Made by a program: the position numbers and the translations under genes. A stretch of 64,000 bases of DNA, from positions 24,154 through 88,153 of the forward strand of contig LSSL01000764.1 in the NCBI GenBank assembly GCA_001953115.1. Reading direction: 5' to 3'. Positions 10,017-53,853 of this stretch are shown here, piece after piece. Under the pieces are notes generated by a model. That model worked only from the letters and a program-made list of their open reading frames with translations, was not told where the DNA came from and searched no databases. Each line of letters starts with the position of its first letter. The stretch's first letter is position 1. This stretch comes from Smittium mucronatum (taxonomy: Eukaryota; Kickxellomycota; Harpellomycetes; Harpellales; Legeriomycetaceae).

Positions 10017-10216
10017 GTTTCCCTCCTTTTTTTGGATATTTGTCTAAACCATTCCACACTTGCTTAAGTATCCTATATACTGGTGGAAAAAAAAACAATT
10101 TGATGAGGTTCTTTCTATATCCGAATCCAAACTACTCCCTTATATGCTATCAACTTTCTGTCTTTATCTTAACCACCTGAACTCTCCAGTAAATTAATGT
10201 GTTTCAAGGGTTTTAA

Positions 10217-10394
10217 CTCTTTCGCACCTGGTAGACTATTTCTCACCGTTATTCATGACCAATATTTATGCCACTTTGATCTCTATACAAACAAACTTGT
10301 GTTATATTGGTTAATTTGTTGCAAGTGAATAATTTATTTATTTAAAATTCAACAAATTGGAGTACGCTGCACATACTGATAAAAAATTATTAAT
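10217..10394 (+). mobile_element. MITE family 2 copy (CTCTTTCG ends, TTAA flank)
   Basis: Begins TTAA-CTCTTTCGCACC. Landmarks along it (CAATATTTATGCC, then CAAATTGGAGTAC, then CACAT) match in order and spacing the reverse complement of the copy at 30,771-30,940. The right end is degenerate: the expected CGAAAGAG-TTAA is replaced by an AT-rich stretch ending in TTAA, so the right boundary is approximate. Non-coding, about 175 bp. Confidence 0.6.
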
Positions 10395-10484
10395 AAAGAT
10401 GCTATCATCACAGAGTTATATTATTGGTCGTTTCTTTTCTCCCATATGCTACAAATTTAAATAGGGCTGATAATTTGTGCTAAT

Positions 10485-10651
10485 CCCTTTCCCCCTCCCG
10501 GGCCTACAAATTCTTCGAGCTTCTATTTGTGAAATATTTTGTTTTCTGGAAAGTGAAATAAAACCAATGCGATTATAGGCGTAATATTAAATTAAACTAG
10601 CTTATTTACAAAAAACTGAGTAATGTTTTAGTTATGTCGATTTTAAAAGGG
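10485..10651 (+). mobile_element. MITE family 1 copy, piggyBac-like (CCCTTT...AAAGGG)
   Basis: Starts CCCTTTCC, ends AAAGGG immediately followed by TTAA. The left flank is TAAT rather than TTAA. Its 167 bp length is almost the same as the 164-bp copy at 30,562-30,725, and its left portion shares the CCCGGGCC, CAAATTC and CTATTTGTG landmarks with it. TTAA target duplications with CCCTTT-type ends are the hallmark of the piggyBac superfamily. No coding capacity, so non-autonomous. Confidence 0.65.
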
Positions 10652-10745
10652 TTAAATATCCGATTGCCTTGTTTAACTTTTATTGGAGCCGAATCTTATT
10701 CTTATTTTCGTTTCACAGATTTTAAGCATAAGATAACGCCATTAT

Positions 10746-10815
10746 CCCTTTCAGGGGCAATGGTACAAAAAATGGCTTTCACTTTTTGCTCAATGTTTTC
10801 ATTAGGCTAATATTT
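10746..10815 (+). mobile_element. Truncated MITE family 1 end
   Basis: Matches the reverse complement of the right end of the 30,562-30,725 element: CCCTTTCAGGGGCAATGGTA, then AAAAAATGGCTTTCAC, then GCTCAATGTT with few differences over about 60 bases, after which similarity stops. No partner end was found downstream; the next sequence is the decayed repeat that starts near 10,818. Confidence 0.7.
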
Positions 10816-10817
10816 AC

Positions 10818-11221
10818 TGCATGCCTATGGATAAATGGTGCAATCTACATGCCGAAATACCCCTCCTCCCTGAAATTGCTTCAAGTGGGATCGGTGATTG
10901 AGGTGACATAAAGTCATGGACTAAACTTACTGCTAAAAAAGTATCGTGTTACTATTGGTCTCCTGGGCCAAATCCTAAATTTAATAGAATTGATAAAAAT
11001 CATGTTCTCTCTCAAACGTGGAGTCTTATCTACATGGTTATCTTACGATGAAATTCCAAGCAATGAAGTACGCCTGTATGTCGAAAGTTGAGCTTGTGTG
11101 TAGAAAGCATCCCAGATTATACGGAACAGGCCGACTTATCCTTTTTCGAGATGGAAATTATCTCGAATTGCTGTCATCCAAGTCTCTGCACACCATCCCT
11201 ACCATTTCCAACCAAAAATAA
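10818..11221 (+). repeat. Decayed dispersed repeat, copy 1
   Basis: About 400 bp that aligns with the minus strand of 35,985-36,927 once the duplicated segment there is counted once. Shared blocks include GGTGCAATCTAC, CCCTGAAATTG, CAAACGTGG and TTTCGAGATGG. Toward the end both copies translate in one frame to similar peptides (LFRDG, then LLSSKSL here against SLSSESL there) with many differences at third codon positions, which suggests descent from a coding sequence. I cannot name the protein. It carries no obvious terminal repeats. Confidence 0.7.
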
Positions 11222-11620
11222 TATATATATGTGTATAATTTTAGTTTAATACAATTTGAAAATTATGCAAATTTTGCCCTTACACTACTGCAAGGTATTT
11301 CACTCCTACGATGTTGGATCTGAAAATACCGAATATAATGCATGTATATAATGTCCAAATATACTAGTTAAATATTAAATAACTTGTCGCTGGTTGGTTA
11401 TTAGAGAGTAAATTTTATCTTTTTATGTTTTTGAATTTCTAGCTTTGTGTATGGGACTGCCGGTGCGGCAAAGTAGATTTAAATGTTAAAATTTTCGAAT
11501 TTTTTTCTATTTTTAAGATTCATTTTTATGACTTTTTATTAAGTTTAAAATAAATTTTATATTCAAAATCAATAGTAAAGAAAGTGTATCTGACACCCAA
11601 TTCAACGATCGAGTATTAAA
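11222..11620. other. Intergenic, nothing recognised
   Basis: AT-rich transition from the repeat cluster into the desert. A TATATATAT stretch lies near 11,221, and no gene or family motif was seen. Confidence 0.6.
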
Positions 11621-12237
11621 CCCCCCCCCCCCCCCCCCCCCCCCCNNNNNNNNNNNNNNNNNNNNNNNNNNNNNNNNNNNNNNNNNNNNNNNNNNNNNNN
11701 NNNNNNNNNNNNNNNNNNNNNNNNNNNNNNNNNNNNNNNNNNNNNNNNNNNNNNNNNNNNNNNNNNNNNNNNNNNNNNNNNNNNNNNNNNNNNNNNNNNN
11801 NNNNNNNNNNNNNNNNNNNNNNNNNNNNNNNNNNNNNNNNNNNNNNNNNNNNNNNNNNNNNNNNNNNNNNNNNNNNNNNNNNNNNNNNNNNNNNNNNNNN
11901 NNNNNNNNNNNNNNNNNNNNNNNNNNNNNNNNNNNNNNNNNNNNNNNNNNNNNNNNNNNNNNNNNNNNNNNNNNNNNNNNNNNNNNNNNNNNNNNNNNNN
12001 NNNNNNNNNNNNNNNNNNNNNNNNNNNNNNNNNNNNNNNNNNNNNNNNNNNNNNNNNNNNNNNNNNNNNNNNNNNNNNNNNNNNNNNNNNNNNNNNNNNN
12101 NNNNNNNNNNNNNNNNNNNNNNNNNNNNNNNNNNNNNNNNNNNNNNNNNNNNNNNNNNNNNNNNNNNNNNNNNNNNNNNNNNNNNNNNNNNNNNNNNNNN
12201 NNNNNNNNNNNNNNNNNAACCCCCCCCCCCCCCCCCC
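11621..12237. other. Assembly gap bordered by poly(C) on both sides
   Basis: 25 C (11,621-11,645), then 572 N (11,646-12,217), then AA and 18 C (12,220-12,237). Both borders are C on the same strand. Assembly evidently stopped within a C-rich region, so the true content and size are unknown. Any translation through the N run is meaningless. Confidence 0.95.
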
Positions 12238-13171: not shown

Positions 13172-14649
13172 TTTTCATATTATTTAAAAAAAAATCTTAA
13201 ATTTAATTTTAAAATCGAAAATAATATTTAAAATGGCAAAAACTCCAAACTTAAAAGTTGGGATATCAATACTTAATTAAAATTATTTCTCTCTTCACAA
13301 TAAAATATTAAGTTTGATTTAAATTGGTAATCTATTGTACTTTTAATTAATGGAATAAACGTAGAATTATAATTCATATTTAATAAAATCAAATTATGTC
13401 GCTTCAAAATATAAATATCTAATATTTTTTAATCTATTCTTTATTTATTTTTAGAATAAGTCATTTTTGAATTTTTTATTCATAATCATAGTTTAAAAAA
13501 AGAAAATTATTTATTTTCATTTTTTTTAAGTTTTTGATTTAATTGATTTAGATTTGTGTAAACTTATAAAAATAAAACACCATCGTCATGAATTTAATAC
13601 TAATAAAGAATCAAAATTAAAAAGCTCTTAGACACGAAATTTTTTTAGCTCAAGCAAGAAGCTTAATATTTTTCATTGGTATGTATTTGATCAATATAAA
13701 TCACAATATATGTATATAAGTTATTCTAAAAGAATGATTACAAATTTTAAATATGATAAATGTTATTTTTTTATATAAATAAAAAAAAAATTAATGGAAA
13801 CCTTCATTTTTTTAGAATTGTGAAGTATAACCGTCCTCAAAAAAAGTTTAATATGAGGAAATTTTATTTAAGGCGGCTTTTATCTGATTAATATGAATAT
13901 ATAAATGAATATAAGGCCGGTTATGGTATTAATAGTTTTTTTTTGAAAAGAGGTGGGTTTAAAATATTCAACATTATATAAGGCTCTGAAATCATTGGAT
14001 AATTACAAAAAATTATTCGATTACACACCTATAAAATTTTTATATCCCTACTTAAAATTGCTTTGATAAGGATTAAATAAGACTGAATTGTCAATTAGAG
14101 AAAAATGGTAAAAAAAATTTAGATTTTTTTTTTGGTTCCCATAAATTCTATAAGTAGTTTTCGAAATATACTTTAAATAATAGTTCCGAATTATTACCAT
14201 AAAAGGGGCTCATATAAAGTAGCAATGATGTTATAGAAAAGGTTATATTTGGATTTATTCTTGATTTTATTGAGGATATCCGTGTCAACTGTTTAGGAAT
14301 GAAAATAATAGAATACATTCGCGAGTTATTTTTCTAACGGATTGAAAATTCTTCAAGTGGTAAGAAATAATAATTGATTATTTTTAATATCCTTTTATAC
14401 CTTTTTTCTAATCCATTTTTAAAAAGAACTTGGGCATATATTAGATGAAATATTAAACTTTATTGATTTTGAGATAAATTAATATCATCAGAATTACAAA
14501 TTAATTTTATATTTATTGTTACATAAAATATATTTAAATAGAAAAAGTATAAATTAAAAACTAATAAAGAATGATTACTTTTGATTTTATTTTTTTATTC
14601 AAAAAAAATACACGTAAAAAATAATAATAAAACTGTATAAATATGAATA

Positions 14650-15600
14650 ATAAATTTTTAACCCCATTAGATAAGCGTTTTTTATTTTAAAAAATAAATT
14701 TTTTGGGTAAATCACCCAAAAATATTGATGAATAATTAAATCATTAAAATCATTAATAATATGATTGATTTATTAATTCAAGCTTAAATAATTTTAGAGT
14801 ATTAAAATTTTGTATTTTGATAAGATCCTGAAGCCGATTTAATCTTTTTTTGATCTATTAATACCAGTTTAGTTAATTTGGTTTTTTTGTGATTTTATCC
14901 CAGATTTTTATTGGCTGATTCATATTTTTGAGAAATATTTGGTGGATTAATTAAAGTTTAGGATAATTTAATTGGTTTTAATATAGGAATTTTTATTATA
15001 TTAGTGGTTTATGAGCGATTTTTTTGGGAATGTAAACATGTATTATTAAACATCTCTCAAAAATCCAAACCCCGAAAAGAAAAAAAAAGAAAAAATTCTT
15101 TTTTTCCAATCCCAAGATGACCAAAAGATAATTTTCGAGTCATTTATACACAAGGGTATATTTTTCCCCTAAGATAAAAAAGATTTAATATAATTAAAAT
15201 CTTATCCATAAATTCAATTCGGTATAACATGGGAACGAAATTTTAAAACAAGTTTCCCTTTAAAATTTGATGGTCTAAATTTCAGGAAAAAATAAAAATT
15301 ATTATATATATATATAAAGAAATGTACGTATGTTATAATTTTCATAAATCCGAATCCTTATTCTAAAATAGGAATTGAAATATTCCTTGCGGTCAAATTT
15401 TTTGAGATTGAGGAAAAAATTAAATCCGTGACTTCCTGTTACAAAAAAAAAACTAAGCTTTGAAAATCTTATGAAATAACGAACCAATTCACTTTTTAAA
15501 TAAAAAAAATCAGTCCACACTTTATAAATTAAAAATCCGCCTAATTATACAATAAAAATAATAAAAGAGAAAAAAAGAAAAATCATATTCAGATATTTAT
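14650..15600 (-). repeat. Diverged repeat AT-R1, copy 1 (inverted relative to copy 2)
   Basis: Read on the minus strand, this segment is collinear with 22,850-23,775 on the plus strand. Anchor pairs: TTTATAAAGTGTG (15,528 and 22,922), TTTAAAAAGTGAATT, GGATTTTTGAGA, CAAAAAAATC followed by an AATAAACC-like block, AAATCTGG followed by AAAATCAC, and ACAAAAT at about 14,801 and 23,640. Distances between first and last anchors are about 727 and 723 bp. The best block is roughly 80% identical over some 100 bases by eye, and elsewhere it is lower with small indels. Part of it is open on the minus strand (15,302-15,520) and shares LKSELV with copy 2 in the same frame. Identity of the element is unknown. 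Confidence 0.75.
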
Positions 15601-15626
15601 CCTGAAATAACTCCGCCGCATTATTA

Positions 15627-15869
15627 TATTATCCCTCTAATTATTTTTAAATATGATATAATGTTATCGGTGGAAACAGATGGCTCATTTTTTTATGCTT
15701 CTTTTACTTTTGAAGCTATTATTTCTATACCAATTTCGCAAGTGGAATTGATTTCAACTTTGGCTATCGATTCATATATTTTCTTAAATTCTAAGCTTAA
15801 AGTTATTTTATCCCATTTCATGTTTATTTCTGGTAATTTTTCTAGGAATAAATTTAAACTGAAAAAAAA
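15627..15869 (-). pseudogene. Coding-like relic, 81 codons with one internal stop
   Basis: On the minus strand one frame stays open for 81 codons apart from a single TAA at 15,695-15,693, then ends in two TAA codons. The peptide is rich in charged and aliphatic residues in an alternating pattern (for example LEKLPEINMKWDK and IGIEIIASKVKEA), unlike the Phe/Lys/Asn/Ile noise expected of random AT-rich DNA. It lies immediately inside the AT-R1 copy. No family recognised. An open frame also runs on the opposite strand (15,661-15,876), so strand choice is a judgement. Confidence 0.35.
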
Positions 15870-16073
15870 TTATTAAAGCCATACAAAATCATGTGAATTT
15901 ATACAAAATATATCATTAGATACAAAATTAAGAAATTGGGGAAATTTTCGTTAGAAAAAAATATTCAGATCGATAAAAAAAAGTTTTTAATTGTTTTCAG
16001 CTGGTTTTTTTAAAATGCAAAACATATATTTGATAAATAATTATATTAGCTAAAAAATAGCGGGCTGGTATTT

Positions 16074-16157
16074 ATGAAGCATCCTACAGTCATAGTTCGG
16101 ATATTAACTGAAGTCAATTACTTGAAACTTCTACATAATTTATCATTCACAGTATAA
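16074..16157 (+). pseudogene. Short coding-like fragment
   Basis: A 27-residue frame starting MKHPTVIVRILTEVNYLK within a brief rise in GC content. Too short to assign. It may be a piece of the same decayed element as its neighbours, or chance. Confidence 0.2.
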
Positions 16158-17637
16158 TATTAACCAAACTGATTAATTCATCTTAAGTGTGAAGAGGTAA
16201 TATATTGTCTTATGATAATCATGTGTTTTAATGGGAAGTTATTATGGATTTAATTTCCTAAATTTATAAAAAAATGGTAATATTGAAGATGAATGCATAA
16301 CTATATTGTTTTTTAAACATAAATCTATCGAATAATGTCATAATTTATTGAAAATATGAGATTTTAAACCTGGTAAATAGGCTGTTTTTCTATTATATTT
16401 AAATATCATGATATTTTACTCATTAAAATTTACATATTTGCTATTAAAAATGAAAAATAACAATTACCAAAATATTTATAACTTTATTTTTAAAACATCA
16501 GTCTAAATATTAAAATATTATATCATTACATTTTATTTATGTTTTTATCACATAAAAATAAAATATTTCTTTTTGAAAAATGATTAAGAATGAAATTGAA
16601 CATGAAATCGCTAGCAAAGTGATCCTTATATGTAATTTTATCTTGTTTCAGGGGTGGGTATGGAAAATTAGAAAATATAGCCCTCCATATATATTACATC
16701 GCTATTTATAACAAAATATATAATATTTCGTTATAGCAATTTTTAAGGTTACGATTTACTAAAAGTCTAGTTTAGCCGGCTATTCCTAAACACTTTAATT
16801 AATGCTGAGTAACAATATATCCGATTATAATTCAAATATGATTAACGTTATTAATCCAAAAAAACTAAATTTAAACATTTCAAATGAAAATTAACAGATA
16901 TAAAAAATTCTATGTTCAACACAGCTTAAAGATATTTAATCATAAATAAAAAAGCATAAAATTTTTCTAGTTATATCAATATTTTTCTTTTTATAACTAA
17001 AAATTCTAAGATCTTAAAAATCCCAAATACGATGATTATATATCTTATCTAACAGAAGCTGTTTAATTAAAAAACATGTATTACTACAAAATTCGGGATA
17101 TTTTTGTCCATCTATTTAATTTTTTCTAGCGGAAATGGCTCTAGCTGCTCAATTTTGTAACATATGACATATGACATATCAATTTACATAATTTTGATTC
17201 ATTTTATTGGTCATACAAGGCTACAATACTTAAATTTAAGTTTTTATAGCACTTTTTCGATAACTTCTAACCTCTTATCTATTTCGCAATTTTTTTCAAA
17301 CAAAATATTGAATATGTGAATGGATATTTACCCTCAATTTTTTTTTCAGTATTAAGATATTCATATTTTAATCTTTTTTCAACTAAAATTTAATTTTATA
17401 TTCGAGTATTAGAATTAATAAAAAAATTATTTTCATTTAATAACCTAATCCTTGAGTATTTTGTTTATATTATACCTGGATTTTTTCTTCTTAGATTTTA
17501 GGGAGGAGGGGGTCGGAGAAAAAAGGATATTAACCAAGTATTTTTTATTTTTCTTTCCTATATACACCATTTATATTATTAGGAAACATAATCTAACCCC
17601 TTAATTTTATAATGACTAAATTTGATTGATTTTTTTT

Positions 17638-17664
17638 ATTTTATTTTTATTTTTATTTTTATTT
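17638..17664. repeat. (ATTTTT)n short tandem repeat
   Basis: About four tandem hexamer units of ATTTTT. Confidence 0.85.
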
Positions 17665-18972
17665 GTTATCTGTTTTTGGATATTTAATCAGAACAATAGA
17701 AGACCGATGCAATAAGTGGATGTACTTTAAAAATGATTTTTTTCCGACAAATTAAAATGAAAAGATCAAACTATATATAATTATATCAATTAAATGCGTA
17801 AAGTAAAAAATATTAAGCCGAGATTATATTATGGGTTTTAATTACAGAAAAATTCTTTTTAAGAATAAATTAAATATTTCGAAAAATTGATACATTTAAA
17901 AACATATATATATTTAAATGGAATAAATCAAAAAAGGTCAAAATAACGTGTTTTTCTAAAAAAAATTTTAATTTCGCGATACAATCAGCTTATATTATAT
18001 TAAAAGATTAAAAAGTAATTTTTTATTTAATTATTTTAAATCCCTTTTTACAAATTAGATATCATTATTTAGATAATAAAAATATTTTATATAAAATTTT
18101 AAATTCAATAAATATCAAATTACATAAATAACTTGCCCAAATTTTATTTATTGGGAGAGAATTTTTTAATATAATTGTTGATATATTTAAAAAACAAAAT
18201 TTGGTCATTTTTCATTTTATCATTTTCCAATCAAAAAAATTTACACTGTTCAACTTAAAAAACGAGAATTTATCATTTTGATAAGTGGTCATTTTTCAAT
18301 AAAAAATGATCATCATATAAAATATGTGATTTTTCTCTTCATTAATAAACATTTTTAAAGAAATTTACCTATAGTTTCTATGAAAGCGTGAACTAAACCA
18401 GTATCAGATAGCAATAAATCGACTCAAAGGTAAATAGAAATAATATTCTGATTTTTTTGTGACTTATGAATACTTTTTTTAAAAAATATAATCTAATTTC
18501 AACATATTCTAAAATATTGATAATTTTTAATTGAATTATTAAAACTAGATTTTGAAAAATTAACACTTATAAAAATGAGAAATATTCGTTTTTTAGTTGA
18601 AAATTGTGCATTTTTTCGATTATAAAATGACCTTTTTTTAAAAAATTTTGGTAAATTTTTAGATTGAAAAATTCCTTCCCAATAAATAAAAACTGATTAA
18701 GTTATCTTTTTAATTTGATCTTTATTATATTTAAAACGCTCATTTTTTTCTGAAAGCTCTATATATAAAAACCAATTTGAGATTTATTAATGAATTTTTT
18801 TATAGAATTCATGAACTTTGCATGTAAATATTAGAAAATAGAATATAGCTCTTTATAAAGTTTTAAAGCTAAATTTATTTTCTTTTTTAAAGAAGAAAAA
18901 TATTTTAAAAATGACTAACTCCAGCTTTCAAAGGCTTTTTTCAAGGGCAGAAGGTATAGATAAAATTTTTAG

Positions 18973-19594
18973 AGAAAATTCAATAGTTTAAAGTACTTTC
19001 TAAATCAATGGGACATATGTGTATTATCACTTTGACCAATTTATAAAGATGAGGTAACTTAATTGACCAATTTCATAATCTTTTCATTTTACAGACTCGT
19101 TTCTTCATTAAATACGGAATTATCGAGTATTAGAATTATTAAAGGTATAAATTTGAATTTATTAATAAGGGACCCTTTGCCAATTTATTTAGCATATCTT
19201 AAATTTTATCCAAATTTTTAATTAATAGGTCCATTTTTTGATATAGATTTTGAACCATCACAAACATTGATTCCAAGGATAACTAACATAATAAAAGACA
19301 CTTTAAAAAATAATTTGCGTCTGAAACTAAAAAAAAACAGCCAAATATCTCAAAAAATTTGTTTTTTTGCATTATCCAGAGGCGAATCTAATCATTGATG
19401 CTTTTATAAAGGATTTTTAGGGGTTTAAAACAGATTTTAGGGAGGAAAAGTTTTTATACTCAGGAAAAAAACAAGATGTTTTTGTTAAAAGAGAATTTGC
19501 TTATATCCCAGATGATAGGATTAAAATTATTAGCGGTATTAAATATGGAACATTCCATGGTATCAACTTATTTTTGAGCCGATTATATGATTAA
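18973..19594 (+). pseudogene. Decayed ORF of about 200 codons, family unknown
   Basis: One frame runs from 18,973 to 19,398 with only three internal stops (TGA near 19,033, TAA near 19,060, TAA near 19,219) where about a dozen are expected in DNA of this composition. At a run of nine A (about 19,328-19,336) the coding-like signal moves to another frame. That second frame continues to 19,594 with a single internal TAG at 19,418-19,420. Peptide pieces such as DIDFEPSQTLIPRITNII, FVFLHYPEANLIIDAF and FAYIPDDRIKIISGIKYG look like real protein. The shift at a homopolymer plus scattered stops fits a pseudogene, although a sequencing slip could explain the shift alone. An intron is an alternative for the TAA near 19,219, since GTATAA at 19,145 and AG at 19,227-19,228 are in suitable phase. 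It lies between the two inverted AT-R1 copies. Confidence 0.45.
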
Positions 19595-22500
19595 AAAAAT
19601 ATTTATTGAATACTTCAGAAGAGATTGAATAGATGGCCCTCGATACTGATCAATATTGTAAGATTTTTGGAAACTTGTGATAGAAAGATTTTTACAAAAT
19701 TTTTTACCAGAATTTTTTTAAATTTTAAGTCAGTGTGATTATAATAATAGCTCAAGGTTTTCATAGATAAAAATTATATTTTATAATTATCAAGGAAGGT
19801 TAAATTAGCTCTGGGGAACTGCTAGGCTAGAAATAACAACAAATTTAGATCTCCACGAGAAAATACACGGAATATGTTTATTTTTGACCGAATATCATCT
19901 CATATTGCATCAGTTAAAAAGATAGAGCATAGATAATGACAATATTGGATTTTTTGGTTACTATCTTATTTTAATATATATTAAAAAATTTGCTTTTATA
20001 ATTATATTAAAAATAAAAAAATTCGATTTTTTAATATTAATTTTTTGAAATGTAGCTATTAAAATAAACCTATATAGTTTTTTATATTCATTTATAATTT
20101 GGTATTTTATAAAAGTTTTTTTTTAAAAAAAATTATCAGCATTTAAAATATATTTGCCGAAATTCTGTTGTAAAAAGTTAGCTATTATTTTATTTAAAAA
20201 AATCCGAAATTTTTCTAGAATAAGAATAATAGCATATGAATAATTGATTAAAATAAATGGTATTGTCTATAAAAAAACCATATATTTATCAAATTTATTT
20301 TTAGATAAAATTTTATAATTTAAACCGGGCTATAAAAGTATTTAATATATTGAAGGCTCGAATATCACTTATTTGATGAATCTTGTGAATTAAATACATA
20401 TACACTTTTATAAAATGTAATAAAGTAACATAAAATTTGAGAGATGAGTTTCAGTCTATATTTTAAACGACAAAGAATAAGTTTTATATTTAAAACATCA
20501 TCGGATATATTAATTTAAGGAAATATTTACCTTTTACCTCATCTTCACAAAATTCTATTTAAGTTTCACAATTTTTGGTCGTTTTTGCCTTTGATTATTT
20601 TTGCAGCTAAAGTTAAAAAATATTTTCAAAAATTTTAAAAGTTTTACTCCTAAAATATAATTTTAAGGACGTATTTTTAAGCCGATTTTTATCTTAAATG
20701 AGTTATAATTAAATCAATGAATAGAGGGGAAACTATTTAAACTAATTAATATATTGGTATATTTTAAAGACTTAATTACAGTTTATTAATTGAATTTATT
20801 AAAGTGAGAAGTAATTTGGAGTAAAATTTTACGATTATTGTTTTTTGGTTTTTTTAGAAAAAGTATGCCTTATAAAAGATGAAGAAAAGATATCTGGGTA
20901 TTTTATTTCAATTTTCTATGGAGTTTAACATTATATTATAGTGAGAAATAATAGGTATTTTAGACATATTTAATAGTATTGAAGTGATTATTTAGATATA
21001 TTTAGGATTTTGCATTACCATGTGTTTGATTCATATATATTTAATTATATATTGAATTAAAAGAAAGGGTGTATAATACTGAATTATATTCGAGAATATA
21101 GTAAATTTTAATATATAATGTTTTAAAAAGCTCAAATAGAATTGATTTAAACAAAAAAAAAATTTAAAAAAATTTCTTTGAAAAAAAATCTATGTCTTTA
21201 TCAACTTTTTATAGAAAGAATGGATATTTCAACGTATAAATTAGAAATTGGCAATTGGCAATTGAATATTATTATTTATAACTTCTTTAGCTTATAATGA
21301 GTTTCAGTGTTATTAATTCGAAGATATGGTTATTTAAACTTCTAAATGGTATTTTAATATAATTCTAGATTCATTTTATTTTGATGAATGTTATTCTATT
21401 TCGAAAAAAAAAAAGAATTAAAAATTTCAATTTAATCTCAGTTTTAAGATATTTTATCGCGAAATTCGATTTTTTTTTTATATAAATGCTTTTTTTGACA
21501 TTTTTTTTGATTTATTTCAATTAAATCACATTTTTTTAAATTTCTCGATTTGTTGAAATGATGAATTTATTTCTAATAGAAAAAATTTCGCATTAAACTC
21601 CATTTATACAATTCTCGCTTAATATTATTAATATTATGCATTTAATTGATATAAAAATACACAATTCGATATTTTCGTTTTAATTATCCTAAAAAATGCG
21701 TTTTAAAAATATAAACATTTATTGCGCATGTAGTCTAATTAGCACAATTATATATATATATATATATTACTTAAATATTTATTCTGAAATGGAATGTATT
21801 TTTGGTTTTGATTTCTTAAAATAAAACCGTTTTGATTTTTCATCCCAACTCCCCCTAATTTATTCAAGTTGATTACATATTATTAGTATGTTATGTATCT
21901 GATATAAAACATTAAAAAGTAGAAATGAATTAAAATTCTATCATTAAAATATTTAATCATATTACTAAAATCCAGAGTATTCAATTAGTCCATTAATTCT
22001 GAGATAATAAAGTCGTACATGTTTTATCTATCGCACCGTTTTTTTTTTTGAAATTAATGGGAATGATAAACAAAAAAAATTATCCAATATTATACAAAGA
22101 AAACTATAAAAATTATATATTCAAAAAAAAAACTCTCTATCAACTTGAATAAATATTTTTTGCATAAAACGTGAAAATGAAAAATTCATCTTGTTTAAAA
22201 CCTCTTAAACTGATTTATTTTTATGTTTGATCCAACCGAAGTGGTTGAAATAGTAAAAATATTTAAAGCTTTATTTAAATATTCTATTTTGTGTACTATA
22301 TATATATATATATATATGCAATATATTTTTCAAACAATTGAAGTATATTTTCTGATATTATTGAAATTTGAAACTTTTTAATTAATGGCGTTAAATTTTT
22401 GATAAATGACGAATTTTTACACAAATACTAGTATCATATATTTTGGAGATCATAAAGCAACAAAAAATGACCTATTAATAATTTATAACCTCCTAATGTT

Positions 22501-22849
22501 TTATTTCATAATTAATTTGTTTAGATAAGATTTATAATTTTTTTCCAAAAAAATGTAAGAAAAAATTATAAGTTTTTTCATTAAATGGTTTATTTTAATA
22601 TTTCTTTTTCCATTTAAGAAAATAGAATTCAATAAATTCAATTCCTTGATTTATTTATAGATTTAAGATTTATAAAAGAGTTTTTTTGTTAATCGAAATC
22701 GTAATTTTATAAAATATTCGTTAATGTGCATCTGAAAGTTACCAATTCTAAGCTATTTATAACCAATAATGAATATATATATATATATTATTTAGTTTTT
22801 TTTAAATTAAACATATCAAAATATAATATTAAATAAAATTTAAAAAATT

Positions 22850-23775
22850 TAACTATAATTAAAATTTTTATGTCGAAGCTTTTTCTTTTATTATTTTTAT
22901 TTTAAATTGAGGGTTTTTTAATTTATAAAGTGTGAGCCGAATTTTTTTTGTTTAAAAAGTGAATTAGTTCCTTATTTGATAAGAATTTTCAAAATTTAGC
23001 TATTTTTTGTAAAAGAAAGTCGCTGATTTAAATTTAGTACTTAATCTAAATTTTTTTTGACTGTACGGAGTATGCGAATTCCGAATTTCAAATAAGGATT
23101 ACGCTTTCTGAAAATTATATAACGTTTAAATAGCTTTTTACATTAAACCAAGTTTTTTTTTTCTTTCTGAGATTTATTCTATCAAATATTAAAATAAAAC
23201 TTGCGTGAAAAATTCGTGCCCATGTAATTCCGAATAGAAGTTAGAGAGAAAAAATCTCAATGATATTAAACCGTATTTGGCTTGGCGGATAACTATAGAG
23301 TTCAATATAAGTGACTCTAAAAATAGAGTTTAATCGTTTTGTGATTTGAAAAAATAATTTTTTTTTTTGGGGGGTTGGATTTTTGAGATGCATTTATAAA
23401 TACATATTTACATATCCAAAAAAATCACTAATAAACCGCTCATATAATCTAAAAAGCTAAATATTAAACCTAAGTCTATTATCTTAAAATTTAATTCATT
23501 CGCCAAATATTATTCATAATATTAAATCAAAAAATATAAATCTGGAGCAAAATCACTCAAAGATCAAATTAACTATATATAGATCGAAATATTAAAAAAA
23601 GTTTAGATCAGCAAAATTATGTTGTCAAATTACAAAATATTAATGTCACTTGCTTATTTCAATCTCAATTTTATTTATCAATTATATTGTATTTATAAAA
23701 TTGAAAAAAAATAATATAATTTGGGATTTAAAGCCCATAATAAAACCCTTTAAATAATGGTTTAAATTTATATCA
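22850..23775 (+). repeat. Diverged repeat AT-R1, copy 2
   Basis: Plus-strand counterpart of 14,650-15,600, in inverted orientation about 7.2 kb away. Shared anchors are given with copy 1. In the shared LKSELV frame this copy has several stops, so it is the more decayed of the two. Downstream similarity extends weakly past TTGGGATTTAAAGCCC (about 23,721), which corresponds to GGGTAAATCACCC near 14,704 in copy 1, and fades by 23,800. Confidence 0.75.
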
Positions 23776-25206
23776 ACACAAAAAAATAAAAAAAATTTAA
23801 TTTTTTATAGCATCAGTTAAATGTGAATTCAAACTAAAAAAAAGGTAGATTATACACAGTGTTTAATAATCTGCAAAATATAATTCAACTTTTGCATAAT
23901 CGGATTACATCATTTAAATATGACCTATATTTCTCTAGAAAATATCATAGCTATTCAACTTAAACAGATTACTGTTTTTTCCTTTTTAAAACTCTTTCTA
24001 CTCGATATTACATTAAAAAAATATAAATATGTAAAAATATGTTAGTTAATAATACTGCAATATAGTTGATTTTTTTTAAAAAAAATATTGGAATTTAATT
24101 TTTTTTCATAATTTTTTTTTTCTGTTTGAATCAGCTACCTTTAAAAAATTGAATTTTATTCAAATAAAGGAATAAATCTTTCCATTTACTCACGTCTTTG
24201 AGCTGCTGGATAACATCGAATTTACATCTTTTAAAAATATCCAAAAAATGTAATTATTTGAGGAGCTCAAATTTTATTATTTTAGATATTTTCTTAAGAA
24301 ATTTTTTGATACAAGATAAAAAATATCTTGGAAAAACGAGGATAATTTGTATCTTTTTATAGTTGATTATAAAAAAACACATATACACGTTCTATACAAA
24401 TTAAAAAAAAGTATTTATTAAAATTTCATAGAATTTTTTACCAAACCAATGACTTGAAATGGCCAGTGGAATTAAATTTATTATTTTTTAAAGAGTGCGA
24501 CACTTTATCGATGTTTTAATATTTTTTATCCAATATAATATCTATTATTAACAATATTATATGAAATAAACGGAGTTTCACATATATAAAAAAGAAAAAT
24601 TAATGAAATATCTGCCAAAAAATAAACTATATACCACCATAAAAAGGAAAAATTAAAATTTTTAAGGGTTTTTAATAAACCCAAATAAGTATAATAAAAA
24701 ATACGAAATCATTTTTACATATATTTATACTATAAAATCTATACTATCGTATGAGATAAAAACAATAATTTTTCTAAAAAAAGAAAAAATTGTTCGCAAA
24801 AGTGTTTAATTTTATACTTTTTATATACAGAAGGATATTTTGAGGTATTTATAATCGGATAAAAAATGAATATGAAGCTAAAAATTGAGGATTTAGTTTA
24901 GAGATTCCAAAAAAAAAAAAAAAGGTTTTTTAATAAATTTGGCAATAGAAATTATGACGAGGTATTTCGAAAATACGCAAAAATAATTAAATATTTTTAT
25001 AACACAATTACTAAATTATTTAAAAAAAAATCATTTATTTTTAGCTTAAAGATGAGACATTAAAGCAGTACTTCGTTTTAGGTATTATAAAATTGAATTT
25101 GAATCGATTTGTTATAAACAAGGACAGTTAAAAGGTTTTGATATTCTGATTTTTTTTTGCTAAAAAAATTGCATAAACTTATCTTGTAATTAAAGAATAG
25201 ATTGTA

Positions 25207-30561: not shown

Positions 30562-30725
30562 CCCTTTCCGGGCCCAAACTTGTGCTTTGCCCCTATTTGT
30601 GTATATTTACAATTCTAATTTGCCCAAATACGTGATCAACCCAATGGTACTCGAATAATATTAAACTAATAATAACATTGAGCGAAAAGTGAAAGCCATT
30701 TTTTGTACCATCGCCCCTGAAAGGG
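30562..30725 (+). mobile_element. MITE family 1, complete 164-bp piggyBac-like element
   Basis: Flanked on both sides by a perfect TTAA (30,558-30,561 and 30,726-30,729). Left end CCCTTTCCGGG and right end CCCTGAAAGGG (reverse complement CCCTTTCAGGG) form an imperfect terminal inverted repeat of about 11 bp. No coding capacity. The combination of TTAA target duplication and CCCTTT ends is diagnostic of the piggyBac superfamily, so this is a non-autonomous derivative. Related copies are at 10,485-10,651 and 10,746-10,815, and an end-like sequence is at 63,111-63,125. Confidence 0.8.
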
Positions 30726-30770
30726 TTAAAAAGCTGCCAAAAATAATATAAATTGCCGTATAGAGTTGAG

Positions 30771-30940
30771 CTCTTTCGTCTCCATGTGTGCTAAGTACTC
30801 CGATTTGCTAAATTTATACAAACTTATTAGCCAATTTCAACAGTTCGGCCAATAAAATGTTAATTTTTTGAATGGAAATCAAGACAGCATAAATATTGGG
30901 CATGAAAATGGCACGCAATGGCCCACCGGCGACGAAAGAG
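30771..30940 (+). mobile_element. MITE family 2, 170-bp element
   Basis: Left end CTCTTTCGTCTCC and right end GGCGACGAAAGAG form an imperfect terminal inverted repeat. The right flank is TTAA, and the left flank TTGAG looks like a mutated TTAA. Starts 45 bp after the family 1 element. Its reverse complement is collinear with 10,217-10,394. Non-coding. Confidence 0.7.
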
Positions 30941-31128
30941 TTAAAGAATCACAAGGTATTAATTGCTCAAGCTATTGAATAAAATCAAAGAATTGTTGGG
31001 GAAAGTGTTATATCCAAGTTTGTATATTAGTATTGAAAAAAGAGTTGATATGAAGACAATATAAAATAATCGGAAAACATTATCTGAATGAAGCGGTTTT
31101 CAAAAGCCGAAATGAGACGGGTGGAGTT

Positions 31129-31935
31129 CTACTGTGTTGCATGGGCCTTAAAGGCTCTAAAAACCCTCTTACTTAGCGGAATAAGGCAGTTTATGCCCAA
31201 AAAGAGTGTTCCTAGAACCCACTTGATTGTATCTTGGTCGTTGATTTCTGCTGGGAAAAATGTTTTTGAAAATTTGCACAAGAGGTACGCAACTACTGCC
31301 TCGGAAACGTGTACTGCCACCGCGATTTTGTGAATAAACCAGGCTGTTTTTTGTCCGATTATGTACGTGTTAAAGAAGGAGAGAACATAGTTATTCTCAG
31401 AGTAGACCGGGTTAGTAGCTATATAATAGTTGAGCCCTAAACCAAAAAGTGTCAAAACTACATTTGTAATTGGCGGCATTCTGAACGCTACCATTCTTGC
31501 ATCTCTTGATAACGAGTTCAATGAATTGTCCACAGAAGCTCCTAAAGATAATTGAGACTCTTCAGCCAACTGGGAAATGTAGCTGTATATTTCTGTGCTT
31601 GTTCTCAAGGGTGTTCTTGATGCAAACGTCATGTCCTCTGTGACCATTTCAGGACTAGTTTTTTCGACTTCAGGATTAGGCTCTTGAGTAGATCCTATCT
31701 CTGTAGTAGCTTCTCCAGCTTCATCTTCAGCGGGCTGGGGCTGATAACTCCATTCGAGCGTAAAGCTTGAATCGTAGATATCTGTAATTTTTGCCTGCTC
31801 AACGTTCGGGCAATTTCCGAAATGTTTGGCTATGTAAATCAGACCTCTGCTGAATTTTGTGTTTATGTCGTTTATAACGAGAGAAACTCCTTCGCTGGCA
31901 GCAGCACTTCTTTTTCTATTTTTTAATCCTGACAT
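31129..31935 (-). CDS. Membrane protein with DUF2470-like N-terminus
   Basis: A single-exon protein of 268 residues ending in TAG, the only one of the six clear genes not using TAA. Residues 17-62 (VSLVINDINTKF, then GLIYIAKHFG, then AKITDIYDSSFTLEW) resemble the DUF2470 fold found in haem-oxygenase-like and flavin-binding proteins. An acidic low-complexity stretch follows (about 66-105), then three hydrophobic segments at about 156-173, 199-222 and 237-254 with a conserved-looking His-Val-Ser-Glu at 209-212, reminiscent of the fungal DUF4499/TMEM254 type. It is likely an organelle or endomembrane protein of unknown function. An in-frame GTG lies seven codons upstream; I chose the ATG at 31,935. 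It is transcribed divergently from the RsfS gene, with 478 bp between the two starts. The family assignment is from memory of motifs and is moderate only. Confidence 0.75.
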   Translation of the reverse strand: MSGLKNRKRSAAASEGVSLVINDINTKFSRGLIYIAKHFGNCPNVEQAKITDIYDSSFTLEWSYQPQPAEDEAGEATTEIGSTQEPNPEVEKTSPEMVTEDMTFASRTPLRTSTEIYSYISQLAEESQLSLGASVDNSLNSLSRDARMVAFRMPPITNVVLTLFGLGLNYYIATNPVYSENNYVLSFFNTYIIGQKTAWFIHKIAVAVHVSEAVVAYLLCKFSKTFFPAEINDQDTIKWVLGTLFLGINCLIPLSKRVFRAFKAHATQ

Positions 31936-32413
31936 TTCTTGCAATATCGACTCCACAACTAGCTTAAACCAGCTTTTTTTCTTCTTGACTAATCACTATA
32001 AAATAAAATAATAATAATCTCGAGTTACGAAACGGCTTGAAGATTGAATTAAGTTTACAAAATAGATTCCCCAAAAGCATATTTGAGCTTCAGCCCTTTT
32101 TTAATATTACTCAAATTAACTCTTTTATTTTTTTTTCTGTGCTACAGATCACTGTCTTTTTACTGGTTGAATATATATAATCTACCGAATGGCTGTTGCG
32201 GAAAGTTGATCCAGGTCCAATGCTTTATTAGTCGCACAGATTTCTACGTAATTTGCTCCATCTTTAATTTAATTTTTTTGCCAGGTTAATTTGTTGCGGC
32301 AAAACAGTTTTCTAAATATGCTCTAATATTACAAGCCCTACTTATCACTTTCTCTCTTAAATGCTAATACAATCTTGCTCTCAAAATCACAGTAATATTA
32401 CATCCTAGAAACC
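31936..32413. promoter_or_regulatory. Shared divergent intergenic promoter region
   Basis: 478 bp separate the starts of the DUF2470-like gene (minus) and the RsfS gene (plus), so both promoters must lie here. A TATATATAAT stretch occurs near 32,170, about 240 bp upstream of the RsfS start. I cannot identify specific operators. Confidence 0.5.
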
Positions 32414-33493
32414 ATGTTCAGATCTTCAGCCTCTTTAAGGCTATTAAACAGCTGTTTAAGCCATAATTTTTATACAAGTAAAACTCTTTTGCCAAGGCTT
32501 GGTAAATTGAACGATCATAAAATCCCTTCTTATAGCCGTGGCATATCTTGTAGTTTATTTATTTTCAAAAAAAACAATGCACACTCTACTGAAAACAATC
32601 AAGATTTCGACTCGAAAACAGATGATTCAATCGAAAATACCGTTGAATATATCGACAAATCCCTCTACCCCGAACTATATCCAGAAAATGAATTAGAGTC
32701 TGAAATTCAAAAAGAGTTGGATCTTGAAGCTAACTTTGACAAAGATCTTTATCCATCTCAAAAAAGCGACGAGTCCCTGAATTTACAAGATCCAAACGTT
32801 CAAATATTAGAATCCGATTTAGCAGATTCCGAATGGTTTGTTGATCAGCAATACGAAGATCAAATCAAAGATTCGGATATTACAAATGACCATAAACTTC
32901 CACTATGGAAGCGGAGAGCTCTGGAGAACTCTTCTATAAATCCGCTTGACGATCAGTCCCGGACTTTTAAACTATCAAGCGAAGATTTTTCTCTTGAAGG
33001 ACTTGATTCGAGCTCTATTGCTGCTCTGAGTCTTCAAGTACTGTCGGCAGAAAACGCAATCAACCCAACTCTAATCGACGTTTCTGATCGTTGTTCGTGG
33101 GCAGAGAGGTTTGTGGTTGTTGAGGCTAGTAGTGTCAAGCATATGCAGTCCATGGCACACGAACTAATATCCATCTTCAAATCTTGTGCCAAGAAAGTTA
33201 ACCCTAACCCCACTTCCGAAATCATCTACAATGTTGATGGCTGGGACAGTAACGAATGGATTGCTATCGATTTGGGTTCCGTTATTATTCATATCTTTAT
33301 GGCTGAGGCCCGCATGGCTTATGATCTAGAAACTTTGTGGTCAAAAGAAATCAAGCAGACTGGCTATGACCAATCCGATATGGTAATTAAGGAAAAGTTA
33401 TCTGAAGAAGAAGCTGAGCTCGATATCTCAAATACCAACATTGATCACGAGCCAGAATTTAGCCAGGACCTGTCCAAAACATCCCCTTCTTAA
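32414..33493 (+). CDS. Mitochondrial RsfS/Iojap-domain protein (MALSU1-like)
   Basis: Ribosome-silencing-factor family protein expected in the mitochondrial matrix, where relatives (human MALSU1, the N-terminal part of yeast Atp25) bind the large mitoribosomal subunit and act in its assembly. Single exon, 359 residues. Residues 1-50 are rich in Ser, Arg, Lys and Leu and free of Glu, as in a mitochondrial presequence. Residues 60-160 are strongly acidic with LYPE-like repeats. The RsfS domain spans about 205-310: VLSAENAINPTLIDVSD, RFVVVEASS, and a terminal block with WIAIDLGSVIIHIF then YDLETLW. The charged tail is short, so the Atp25 C-terminal domain involved in OLI1 mRNA stability is absent. 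The LPLWKRRAL segment at 162-170 recalls the linker preceding the domain in fungal Atp25. It converges on the epimerase gene, with 168 bp between stops. Confidence 0.9.
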   Translation: MFRSSASLRLLNSCLSHNFYTSKTLLPRLGKLNDHKIPSYSRGISCSLFIFKKNNAHSTENNQDFDSKTDDSIENTVEYIDKSLYPELYPENELESEIQKELDLEANFDKDLYPSQKSDESLNLQDPNVQILESDLADSEWFVDQQYEDQIKDSDITNDHKLPLWKRRALENSSINPLDDQSRTFKLSSEDFSLEGLDSSSIAALSLQVLSAENAINPTLIDVSDRCSWAERFVVVEASSVKHMQSMAHELISIFKSCAKKVNPNPTSEIIYNVDGWDSNEWIAIDLGSVIIHIFMAEARMAYDLETLWSKEIKQTGYDQSDMVIKEKLSEEEAELDISNTNIDHEPEFSQDLSKTSPS

Positions 33494-33604
33494 ACAGCCC
33501 CCCTTTTAATTTTTCAAGAAGTCTTATTTTTTTACATGTGAAAAATTTATTGTTTTTATAGAATTAGAGTATAAATAATAAAAGAAAAAAAATTGCATCA
33601 CGAG

Positions 33605-33614
33605 TTTATTTATT
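33605..33614 (-). promoter_or_regulatory. Putative polyadenylation signal of the epimerase gene
   Basis: On the minus strand AATAAATAAA lies about 50 bases beyond the epimerase stop codon. Canonical AATAAA hexamers are easy to find in AT-rich DNA, so this rests on position. Confidence 0.4.
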
Positions 33615-33661
33615 GGACAAGATGCAGATTATTATGAGTTATAAACCACAAAAAATAAATA

Positions 33662-34873
33662 TTAATTCTTTTGAACAGACATTGTGTATACTCCCTCCCA
33701 ATGTTGGCCGGCTGGCAAGACTACGGGGCTGTCTACTGAACCTGCCTCAACGCAAAGCATTTCCTGGTATTCAGTGTCTCCGAAATCGGACATTCCCTTA
33801 GCAAGCTCAATCCAAGGATTCCAGACAACTATTTTATAAGAATTATAGAACGTAAAGAAGGATTAATAACAAGAGCTTGATGTTACAGCTAAAAGAAGGG
33901 AAAAAATCGTCAAGTGTTCTTACCGAAATCATTAAAACCAGTTTTGGTCAATTGCAGAGATTCAGACTCGTTTTCAAAGCTGAGGGCCAAAGAATCGGGA
34001 GCATCGACATACACTCTATCAGTGCTACCGGTGATAACCAAAGGTTCTTCGGGATTGACTTCATCACGAGTGCCCAAAACTTTGTCAACGTACTTGATTC
34101 CAGCCAAGCCTTGAAGACGAGTGCCGTTAATGTCGTTTGTGCGAAAGTAGGCATGTAACAAAGAAGTGAAGTCGAATTCGCGAGTATCGGTGTTTTCTAC
34201 GTTGAGGGATAATTTCAAATCGGTTTCGCCCAAGAACACAGTCAAAACCAATCTGAATTTGTACGGCCATGGGGAAGCAACGGTCTTTTCGTTCTCTGTG
34301 AGTAGGAATCGAGCTTGGACGCCGTCTACGCTGTCCTTATGGCCTAAAAACTCCCATCTGGTTACTCTAGCAAACCCATGTTGAGGCAATTTTCCTGGGC
34401 CGAATTGAGCTAAAATAATAAAATGAATGTTAATAAATCATGAATAACCTAGTTTACATTTACGAGATTAAATAAAATGAATTTGGGCAAAGAATTATAT
34501 ATATGTGTGTGTAAGAGTTTCTTTACGGAACACAACGGGGATACCGCCACGGATAGCCTTAACGTCATTAAAAATTGCTTGCTTGCTAGTATCAAAAACA
34601 GAAATAAAAAACCGGAACTGAGGGAAATGTTCAATTTAACAAGATAACAGCAAGTAGTAAGCGCCAAGATTTGGCTAAAGAAAAAGGTATTTGTAGAATT
34701 TGGATGGGCGGTAGTAGCAATGCGTACCTCAAGAAGATTCTTTCTTTTCCCAAAGATATCCAGGAAGTGATAGTGGCGCCATGGGTGTGAACAACGCATG
34801 CAGATCCAGTAGCACCCATGAGTACAACCTTGTCTACAATCCCATAGTGGTCGGTGGTAGTTTTAACTGGCAT
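33662..34873 (-). CDS. Glucose-6-phosphate 1-epimerase (YMR099C type)
   Basis: Aldose-1-epimerase superfamily enzyme interconverting alpha and beta anomers of glucose 6-phosphate in the cytosol. Four exons on the minus strand: 34873-34728, 34585-34527, 34409-33924 and 33828-33662. Introns are 142, 117 and 95 nt (donors GTACGC, GTAAAG, GTAAGA), with phases 2, 1 and 1. The joined product is 285 residues, slightly shorter than the yeast protein (297). The substrate-binding RGGIPVVFPQFG segment spans 61-72, across the second junction. LPQHGFAR places one active-site His at 79, HAYFR gives a second at 154, FVVWNPWIE spans the third junction, and CVEAG places the catalytic Glu at 258. After that Glu the family's usual His-rich EPGH is replaced by EAGSVDSP. 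Start is the first ATG, giving a family-typical N-terminus. Its upstream region is shared with the possible gene at 35,249. Confidence 0.95.
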
Positions 34874-35248
34874 TCTTTATCTTATAATTAGTTGATATAA
34901 TTCAGGTTTATTATTAAATCAATGTTGGCTTGACAAAAAGGAAACTCTTTAAAAAAAAAAGACTCGATAAAACCAACAACCTTTTAAACTTCCAGGAACT
35001 CTGCCATGGAACAATCGATTACACGTGCTGTGGAGCTGCAAATTACGAGCGAATTTATTCACATGGCAAGACTTCTTATTCAAGCTGCTAGCTAATTTCT
35101 CCTTTAGGTCTATTCTGATTCACCTCAAATCGAAATGATTCGTTCCTTTTTCCCGCCCTCAAAACCCCAACAAACCATCCAATAGTATTGATTGATCCGC
35201 AAGACAATCGATTTGAAACATTTACCAATTCCCAAACATCGACTCGCA
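34874..35248. promoter_or_regulatory. Upstream region of the epimerase gene with a CACGTG site
   Basis: 375 bp between the epimerase start and a possible divergent gene. A CACGTG palindrome (35,023-35,028), the core site for bHLH factors, lies about 150 bp upstream of the epimerase start. The segment 35,100-35,250 is noticeably less AT-rich than its surroundings. Regulation by a bHLH factor is inference. Confidence 0.35.
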
Positions 35249-35581
35249 ATGGATGCTATTCTCGCCAGTACAGATTGCCCATTCAGCCCACACGCTGATC
35301 AAGACGCTGAAAATTCGTGAGCCAAAACCCCCTTATTATAAAACTATTATTAACTCAGACAAAAGCCTAAAACTCGATTAATAAACTGGGTGTGTCGGGT
35401 CGAGAAAAAGGACTCATTACAGCAGATATCGGCACCAGTCCGCATTTCACTATGTCTGCAAAAAATCTTGATGCTCAATAAACTTCGAGCTTTTTTTAAA
35501 GAAAGCTTTATGCTAAACCCAATTCGACAAGTAACTTTTTATGGGGTTTGTTTGGTCAGCATTTCCCGCAATGTTGAATAA
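35249..35581 (+). CDS. Possible small two-exon gene, weakly STN1-like
   Basis: Proposed exons 35249-35316 and 35359-35581, joined across a 42-nt intron (GTGAGC donor, TATTAACTCAG acceptor region), giving 96 residues. The second exon alone is an open frame of 74 codons. Near its end, LNPIRQVTFYGVCLVSI resembles the strand pattern at the start of the OB fold in STN1, a telomere-capping CST subunit (hallmark: hydrophobic residue, N-HPI-K/R, then V-x-hydrophobic-GxV). The frame stops where the family would continue into further strands, so the model is truncated, missing an exon, or wrong. The intron is shorter than any other in the window (57 nt or more). Treat as hypothetical. GC content and divergent placement from the epimerase support a real gene more than the similarity does. 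Confidence 0.3.
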
Positions 35582-35984
35582 GTTTAGCGGCGTTTTCCTT
35601 TTTATTTTTAGACTAATATTATTTTAAAATCGTAAATTCACATACAATATTTTTTCCAATAGCCCACTAAAAACAATAGCTATATTGTCAAACAGTAGCC
35701 ACTTAAATTAAGCAAATGGAAGCAGATTTAGAAACGTGTATTTTTATCAAATGAAAAAGGTAAATGTATTTTTTCTAGTGGTTGATATCTGTAAAATATT
35801 AAGAAATGAACTCTATTTATTCGTTTGAATTAAATTCACAAGCCAACCAAATCTGCACCATGGAGCAGCGTTTAAAATGCAGACTTAAACCTGCTTCTAC
35901 TACTAAGAGTTAAATACCTTGCTGTGGTTTAGGGGCTTAATGTTGTATTTTTCGAAGTACAATATACCAAAATTTCACACAGAT
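35582..35984. other. Intergenic, nothing recognised
   Basis: AT-rich spacer between the possible small gene and the second copy of the decayed dispersed repeat. GTAAATG and several AG dinucleotides could serve as splice sites for a longer version of the upstream gene, but no convincing exon was found. Confidence 0.5.
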
Positions 35985-36027
35985 TTGTACTGTTCTTGGT
36001 TGGGAGTAGTGGAGATAGCGCACAGCG

Positions 36028-36289
36028 ATTCGGAGGACAGCGATTCCAGAGGAGGACCATCTCGAAACAGAAGGAACCGATCGTTTAGCACAGCTGAGTC
36101 ATAGTCTAGTGCACAAGTCAAGCGTTTGGCAGTCAGACATATCTCAACGTCTAACACCTATTTGTAGAAAAGCCATGTCGATCAATCCCACGTTTGGGTA
36201 GGGGCCTAATTTTATTAATCCTGTTAGAAGCAGGCTCTGACTAGGAGCTCAATAGCTTCAATGAACTGTTGTTCATTGACAAAGAGCTT
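36028..36289 (+). repeat. 262-bp direct duplicate, left copy at gap edge
   Basis: Base-for-base identical to 36,544-36,805 when compared line by line. Ends exactly at the first N of the gap. Confidence 0.95.
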
Positions 36290-36543
36290 NNNNNNNNNNN
36301 NNNNNNNNNNNNNNNNNNNNNNNNNNNNNNNNNNNNNNNNNNNNNNNNNNNNNNNNNNNNNNNNNNNNNNNNNNNNNNNNNNNNNNNNNNNNNNNNNNNN
36401 NNNNNNNNNNNNNNNNNNNNNNNNNNNNNNNNNNNNNNNNNNNNNNNNNNNNNNNNNNNNNNNNNNNNNNNNNNNNNNNNNNNNNNNNNNNNNNNNNNNN
36501 NNNNNNNNNNNNNNNNNNNNNNNNNNNNNNNNNNNNNNNNNNN
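36290..36543. other. Assembly gap (254 N), probably spurious
   Basis: The gap is preceded by a 262-bp sequence and followed by the identical 262 bp. That is the pattern of two contigs overlapping at their ends but scaffolded without merging. The homologous repeat at 10.8-11.2 kb has the sequence once. Confidence 0.8.
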
Positions 36544-36805
36544 ATTCGGAGGACAGCGATTCCAGAGGAGGACCATCTCGAAACAGAAGGAACCGATCGT
36601 TTAGCACAGCTGAGTCATAGTCTAGTGCACAAGTCAAGCGTTTGGCAGTCAGACATATCTCAACGTCTAACACCTATTTGTAGAAAAGCCATGTCGATCA
36701 ATCCCACGTTTGGGTAGGGGCCTAATTTTATTAATCCTGTTAGAAGCAGGCTCTGACTAGGAGCTCAATAGCTTCAATGAACTGTTGTTCATTGACAAAG
36801 AGCTT
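36544..36805 (+). repeat. 262-bp direct duplicate, right copy at gap edge
   Basis: Starts exactly at the first base after the gap and is identical to 36,028-36,289. The sequence then continues uniquely. Confidence 0.95.
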
Positions 36806-53258: not shown

Positions 53259-53853
53259 GTGTGTGTGTGTGTGTGTGNNNNNNNNNNNNNNNNNNNNNNN
53301 NNNNNNNNNNNNNNNNNNNNNNNNNNNNNNNNNNNNNNNNNNNNNNNNNNNNNNNNNNNNNNNNNNNNNNNNNNNNNNNNNNNNNNNNNNNNNNNNNNNN
53401 NNNNNNNNNNNNNNNNNNNNNNNNNNNNNNNNNNNNNNNNNNNNNNNNNNNNNNNNNNNNNNNNNNNNNNNNNNNNNNNNNNNNNNNNNNNNNNNNNNNN
53501 NNNNNNNNNNNNNNNNNNNNNNNNNNNNNNNNNNNNNNNNNNNNNNNNNNNNNNNNNNNNNNNNNNNNNNNNNNNNNNNNNNNNNNNNNNNNNNNNNNNN
53601 NNNNNNNNNNNNNNNNNNNNNNNNNNNNNNNNNNNNNNNNNNNNNNNNNNNNNNNNNNNNNNNNNNNNNNNNNNNNNNNNNNNNNNNNNNNNNNNNNNNN
53701 NNNNNNNNNNNNNNNNNNNNNNNNNNNNNNNNNNNNNNNNNNNNNNNNNNNNNNNNNNNNNNNNNNNNNNNNNNNNNNNNNNNNNNNNNNNNNNNNNNNN
53801 NNNNNNNNNNNNNNNNNNNNNNNNNNNGGGGGGGGGGGGGGGGGGGGGGGGGG
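53259..53853. other. Assembly gap between (GT)n and poly(G)
   Basis: A GT dinucleotide run (about 53,258-53,277), then 550 N (53,278-53,827), then 26 G (53,828-53,853). The same (GT)n plus poly(G) combination exists intact at 29,113-29,135. The gap size is unknown. Confidence 0.95.

Follow-up and report, generated by a model that had tools for sequence, protein, structure and literature searches.

Nested dead transposons between diverged inverted repeats in an AT-rich intergenic desert of Smittium mucronatum

Positions 14,650 to 23,775 of a 64,000-nucleotide stretch of the genome of Smittium mucronatum, a member of the Harpellales (Kickxellomycota) (the whole stretch is referred to here as the window), are bounded by two long, diverged inverted repeats, which raises the question of whether this 9.1-kb segment represents one large element, as an earlier reading made from the sequence alone had proposed, or several smaller ones. 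Our analyses favor nested insertions of dead transposons within an AT-rich intergenic desert, with three elements (termed A, B and C, with C nested in B) lying between the arms of an outer inverted repeat (termed D). We put at about an even chance the reading that D itself is a dead DNA transposon with long terminal inverted repeats (TIRs), and the last of its family that can still be detected. The size attributable to D is approx. 3.5 kb, not 9.1 kb, because A and B (with C) are separate repeat families that are found elsewhere in the genome.

The outer arms and the repeat families between them

With BLASTN, positions 14,801-15,572 aligned in inverted orientation to positions 23,644-22,880 (567 of 780 columns identical, 73%; 423 bits), and more permissive scoring extended this match to 14,758-15,572 / 23,688-22,880 at 72% identity; ungapped identity was 74.6% over 799 columns. 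When the two segments were aligned locally, their score (724) was far above those obtained with 200 dinucleotide shuffles (mean 110, standard deviation 13, maximum 152), which confirms the diverged inverted repeats of ~0.9 kb that the sequence-only reading had placed here. Its estimate of ~80% identity in the best block also holds, as identity per block of 40 alignment columns ranged from 0.57 to 0.88 (the two highest blocks lying at the inner ends). The span enclosed by the arms is 7,307 bp.

Each arm was then compared to the genome, i.e., a 73.8-Mb eukaryotic assembly of 2,957 contigs, with a search that skips very common words. Each matched itself and its partner alone (2 candidates each, both scored), and a 35-place pattern of the arms, with up to 3 mismatches allowed, also found the two arms alone genome-wide. 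Two insertions of one dispersed repeat in opposite orientations, which had been put forward as a different source of the same layout, are thus not supported, as searches with either arm revealed no further copies.

A genome search with positions 14,000-24,500 of the window returned at least 115 matches, and those between the arms belong to three families; as scoring covered 39 of the 145 candidates, the counts given here are lower bounds. Element A was fetched at 11 other loci, element B at 15 and element C at 9, and several of these copies are partial; many copies of all three elements share the ends seen in the window. Close to both of its ends, A carries inverted repeats (15884-16044 / 17196-17032, 65% identity), and B has TIRs of ~300 bp (17709-18027 / 21725-21416, 73% identity) and measures ~3.4 kb without C. 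Approximately 5.4 of the 7.3 enclosed kb consist of these other repeat families, so that D, which spans 8.9 kb at present, is reduced to 3,528 bp when A and B are subtracted; the outer locus would thus have measured ~3.5 kb before A and B inserted. The proposal of a large decayed element with TIRs therefore holds only in part, i.e., an element with inverted ends is possible, but at well under half the proposed size.

Three coding-like relics had also been reported between the arms. Our Pfam scan covered 38 of 82 open frames (≥35 amino acids), among them 18 of 19 located at least partly in the D interior, with an E limit of up to 1 for part of the scanned frames and of 0.1 for the rest. The relic at 19.0-19.6 kb falls in the transposase region of the multi-copy element B, which carries the probable remains of a DDE-type transposase at ~19.0-20.0 kb. 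The relic at 16.1 kb lies inside A, for which no coding match was found in the scan of open frames. The relic at 15.6-15.9 kb corresponds to an open frame of 103 codons (15565-15873, plus strand) in D interior piece 1, which was found once in the genome and had no Pfam match.

Table 1. Positions in the window of the outer inverted repeat D and of the elements between its arms
Feature	Start	End	Strand	Basis and remarks
D left arm	14758	15572	+	Alignment to partner; sole genome places are both arms
D interior piece 1	15573	15842		DNA searched only within the 14,000-24,500 search; protein searched on its own
Element A	15843	17205		Genome search; ~1.36 kb; start approximate
D interior piece 2	17206	17694		Genome search: this place alone
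AAT left of B	17695	17697		Probable target-site duplication
Element B (C inside)	17698	21736	+	Genome search, TIRs, transposase traces; ~4.0 kb
Element C	18091	18764		~0.67 kb, palindromic, resembling a miniature inverted-repeat transposable element (MITE); nested in B; ends approximate, left end eroded
AAT right of B	21737	21739		Probable target-site duplication
D interior piece 3	21742	22879		Genome search
D right arm	22880	23688	-	Alignment to left arm; genome search

Dead transposon or inverted duplication

If D is a dead long-TIR transposon, a cut-and-paste DNA transposon would have inserted here once, or would have lost its siblings elsewhere; it would then have lost any transposase, decayed neutrally and received the insertions of A and B. 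D resembles DNA transposons with long TIRs (e.g., Mutator-like elements) in that long inverted arms surround a spacer at a total length of ~3.5 kb, and a length of 3,528 bp is common among DNA transposons. A transposon origin of D is also favored by the finding that A, B and C each form a multi-copy family of their own and that the other close inverted pairs examined in the window (those of A, B, C and a further element, E, described below) are the ends of multi-copy elements. At the BLASTN threshold, 8 inverted pairs were found in the window, and the only direct pair lies on either side of an assembly gap.

On the other hand, several observations weigh against a transposon origin. D differs from known long-TIR transposons in that it is present in a single copy, whereas equally diverged families keep at least 9 other loci, in that no transposase match was found among the 18 of 19 open frames of its interior that were scanned, and in that no convincing target duplication could be detected; the best candidate direct repeat at its outer edges was equalled or exceeded in 17 of 60 random placements, although such candidates were more numerous (13) than the random mean (7). 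In addition, identity fades at the outer edge with no crisp end motif, and most superfamilies have shorter arms than the 0.8 kb of D.

Nearly as likely as a dead transposon is that unique desert DNA was duplicated locally in inverted orientation long ago (through a template switch or a segmental duplication), in which case A, B and C would be ordinary insertions. Consistent with this explanation, the arms are found here alone, neither D interior piece 2 nor piece 3 matches any other place substantially (for piece 3, short matches of 37-80 bp with E values between 1e-6 and 3e-7, plus weaker ones, were obtained), and D has no target duplication above chance. Desert DNA has moreover been segmentally duplicated elsewhere in this genome; three loci with copies of B (L026, L027 and L029) have B and its left flank in common, with left flanks that are 79-94% identical (94% for L027 as compared to L029) and with 87% identity over 4.3 kb between L026 and L027, and these alignments indicate that the three loci represent a segmental duplication. 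Conversely, duplication in general should leave some direct copies, but the window shows no comparable direct duplication at the BLASTN threshold, and the close inverted pairs of A, B, C and E are transposon ends. The flanks of D had no other match in the genome except one match of 66 bp and one of 26 bp.

The arms have diverged in the manner of neutral noncoding DNA. Their K80 distance is 0.31, their identity is even along the length (chi2 = 28.8, df = 30, P = 0.53), mismatches are spread over the three codon phases (74/68/61), and 13 gaps, each 1 to 11 bases long, occur in the alignment. Coding arms were rejected on account of the missing codon phase and of gap lengths of 1, 2 and 11. Repeat-induced point mutation is also not supported as the cause of decay, because transversions between the arms outnumber transitions (127 as compared to 76). 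The divergence between the arms is similar to that among copies of B, which fits the proposed nesting and gives no date.

One open frame of 44 residues in the D interior (22,198-22,329, minus strand) matched the profile of NIPA magnesium transporters (E = 0.0066; 16.1 bits, with a cut-off of 26.2). This match is not significant because 38 frames were scanned (~0.25 equally good matches would be expected), and it may represent a decayed or captured gene fragment or chance. A Pfam match to IL1 (E = 0.098) was rejected as chance-like. We regard it as rather improbable that D is the sole surviving copy of a family outside the named superfamilies, perhaps with a captured host-gene fragment represented by this NIPA-like frame.

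A functional role of the arms, either as a source of hairpin RNA or as inverted repeats flanking a centromere core, appears highly unlikely. Imperfect pairing between the arms would be feasible, and some fungal centromeres have an AT-rich core surrounded by inverted repeats. However, the substitutions are evenly distributed and show no wobble bias (wobble-type as compared to non-wobble changes, 18/15 and 21/22), a second desert of the same composition in the window holds an ordinary transposon, and the window has no Rfam match; searches of the window for tRNAs and for a TTAGGG-type telomere pattern also gave no match. No present function is apparent in the segment.

Maverick/Polinton elements combine long inverted ends with a length of ~15 kb or more and with genes for DNA polymerase B, integrase, ATPase and capsid proteins, while integrated linear plasmids carry genes for a terminal protein and a polymerase between long TIRs. 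That the arms bound a single 9.1-kb element of either type, as first suggested, is barely credible; the layout alone (long inverted ends or TIR-like arms) favors it, whereas D measures only 3,528 bp once A and B are subtracted, most of the enclosed DNA belongs to repeat families whose copies elsewhere in the genome are flanked by neither arm, and none of the 38 frames scanned (of 82) matched a polymerase, integrase, ATPase or capsid family or a linear-plasmid gene, although deep decay could hide remnants.

Affinities and relative age of the inserted elements

Target-site duplications of B were assessed by eye in 11 copies for which both ends are shown. AAT flanks both ends in 5 of these (the window copy, L025, L026, L027 and L036), although L026 and L027 represent one duplicated insertion; ANT directly follows the right end in 9 of the 11. 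Copy L032 has the flanks AGT/AAT, and copies L024, L028, L030, L031 and L037 have no identical pair of flanking triplets. A 2-bp TA duplication is also possible and would fit 8 of the 11 copies. If the ANT reading holds, the TIR of B begins with AG.

Transposase traces were found in three other copies of B, all under the curated Pfam cut-offs: an open frame of 145 residues in L023 matched HTH_Tnp_4 (E = 3.4e-5), L024 matched the same family (E = 8.3e-5), and L037 matched DDE_Tnp_4 (E = 0.001). No transposase match to Pfam was found in the remaining B pieces scanned. HTH_Tnp_4 has 32 matches in the genome, 25 of them above the cut-off, and the match in the L023 copy (C97) is the weakest of the 32. 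The transposase of B is broken in the copies examined.

These features invite comparison with Pangu, a group of the PHIS superfamily (IS5-like DDE) which, according to its description (PMC4482050), has ANT target duplications, TIRs of 11-40 bp that start with AG or GG, a mean length of 3,487 bp for autonomous candidates, and a DDE transposase related to those of PIF/Harbinger and IS5. B resembles this group in its probable ANT duplication (AAT), the AG start of its TIR on that reading, its length of ~3.4 kb without C and its weak traces of HTH_Tnp_4 and DDE_Tnp_4, but differs in its inverted ends of ~300 bp (as compared to 11-40 bp), its broken transposase and its Pfam scores under the cut-offs. 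Because of the long inverted ends, we term B Pangu-like and do not assign it to the group.

C resembles palindromic MITE-like elements in being short, having long inverted arms and occurring in several copies, and differs from the named ones in that its family is unnamed; coding matches for C were looked for only among the open frames of B copies. At all 15 other B loci fetched, C is absent from the insertion site seen in the window, and the DNA left of C joins the DNA right of C either directly or after tens of unaligned bases. At one of these loci (L029), a stretch of 113 bp weakly matches C, but elsewhere in the locus and in the opposite orientation. As none of the 15 loci has C at this site, comparison of the copies suggests that C most likely entered the window copy of B after B had spread.

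Genomic setting, other repeats and significance

The segment lies in a desert between an oxidase-like open frame (ending at ~10.0 kb) and PTPA (starting at 26.9 kb). Guanine plus cytosine (GC) content in the window is ~25-38% in gene islands and near 20% in deserts. Open frames in the window match tubulin, a flavin adenine dinucleotide (FAD)-dependent (D-amino-acid) oxidase, PTPA, RsfS/MALSU1, aldose epimerase and kinesin; for the beta-tubulin frame, the highest identity among the 120 listed of 7,982 matches was with Smittium culicis (335 of 378 residues). No description of the locus was found in the literature examined on Smittium culicis or Harpellales transposons and on PHIS groups (PMC12611240, PMC10386755, PMC4482050). 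The publications found on Smittium and inverted repeats concern mitochondrial genomes.

Element E, in the second desert of the window (49.2-51.05 kb; 49,202-51,050), has inverted ends of ~195 bp at 78% identity and is matched, in full or in part, on 20 other contigs. The same desert contains an inverted pair at 44,007-44,272 / 47,347-47,084 (272 columns, 64% identity), and a further pair at 62,263-62,409 / 63,719-63,566, with 72 bp at 92% identity within a longer match of 72%, is possibly another small element. Inverted matches of 73-360 bp at 65-90% identity also connect 10,212-11,308 with 30,657-36,255, i.e., two gene islands 20-25 kb apart. Only part of the weaker inverted pairs obtained with permissive scoring were examined further.

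Other features of the window reflect its assembly. An identical 262-bp direct repeat (36,028-36,289 / 36,544-36,805) flanks a gap of Ns (36,290-36,543) and most likely represents unmerged contig ends, i.e., an assembly artefact. Homopolymer runs of C (25 bases, 11,621-11,645) and G (30 bases, 53,828-53,857) abut gaps of Ns, and long open frames that span such gaps are artefacts.

Old and strongly diverged DNA transposons are nested here in a gene-poor desert with 20% GC; this arrangement is itself ordinary and has little significance beyond annotation. It shows that two inverted repeats recognized by eye may be taken erroneously for a single large element if later insertions are not subtracted, and the nested order found here (C in B, and B in the outer repeat) is usable for the relative dating of these elements.

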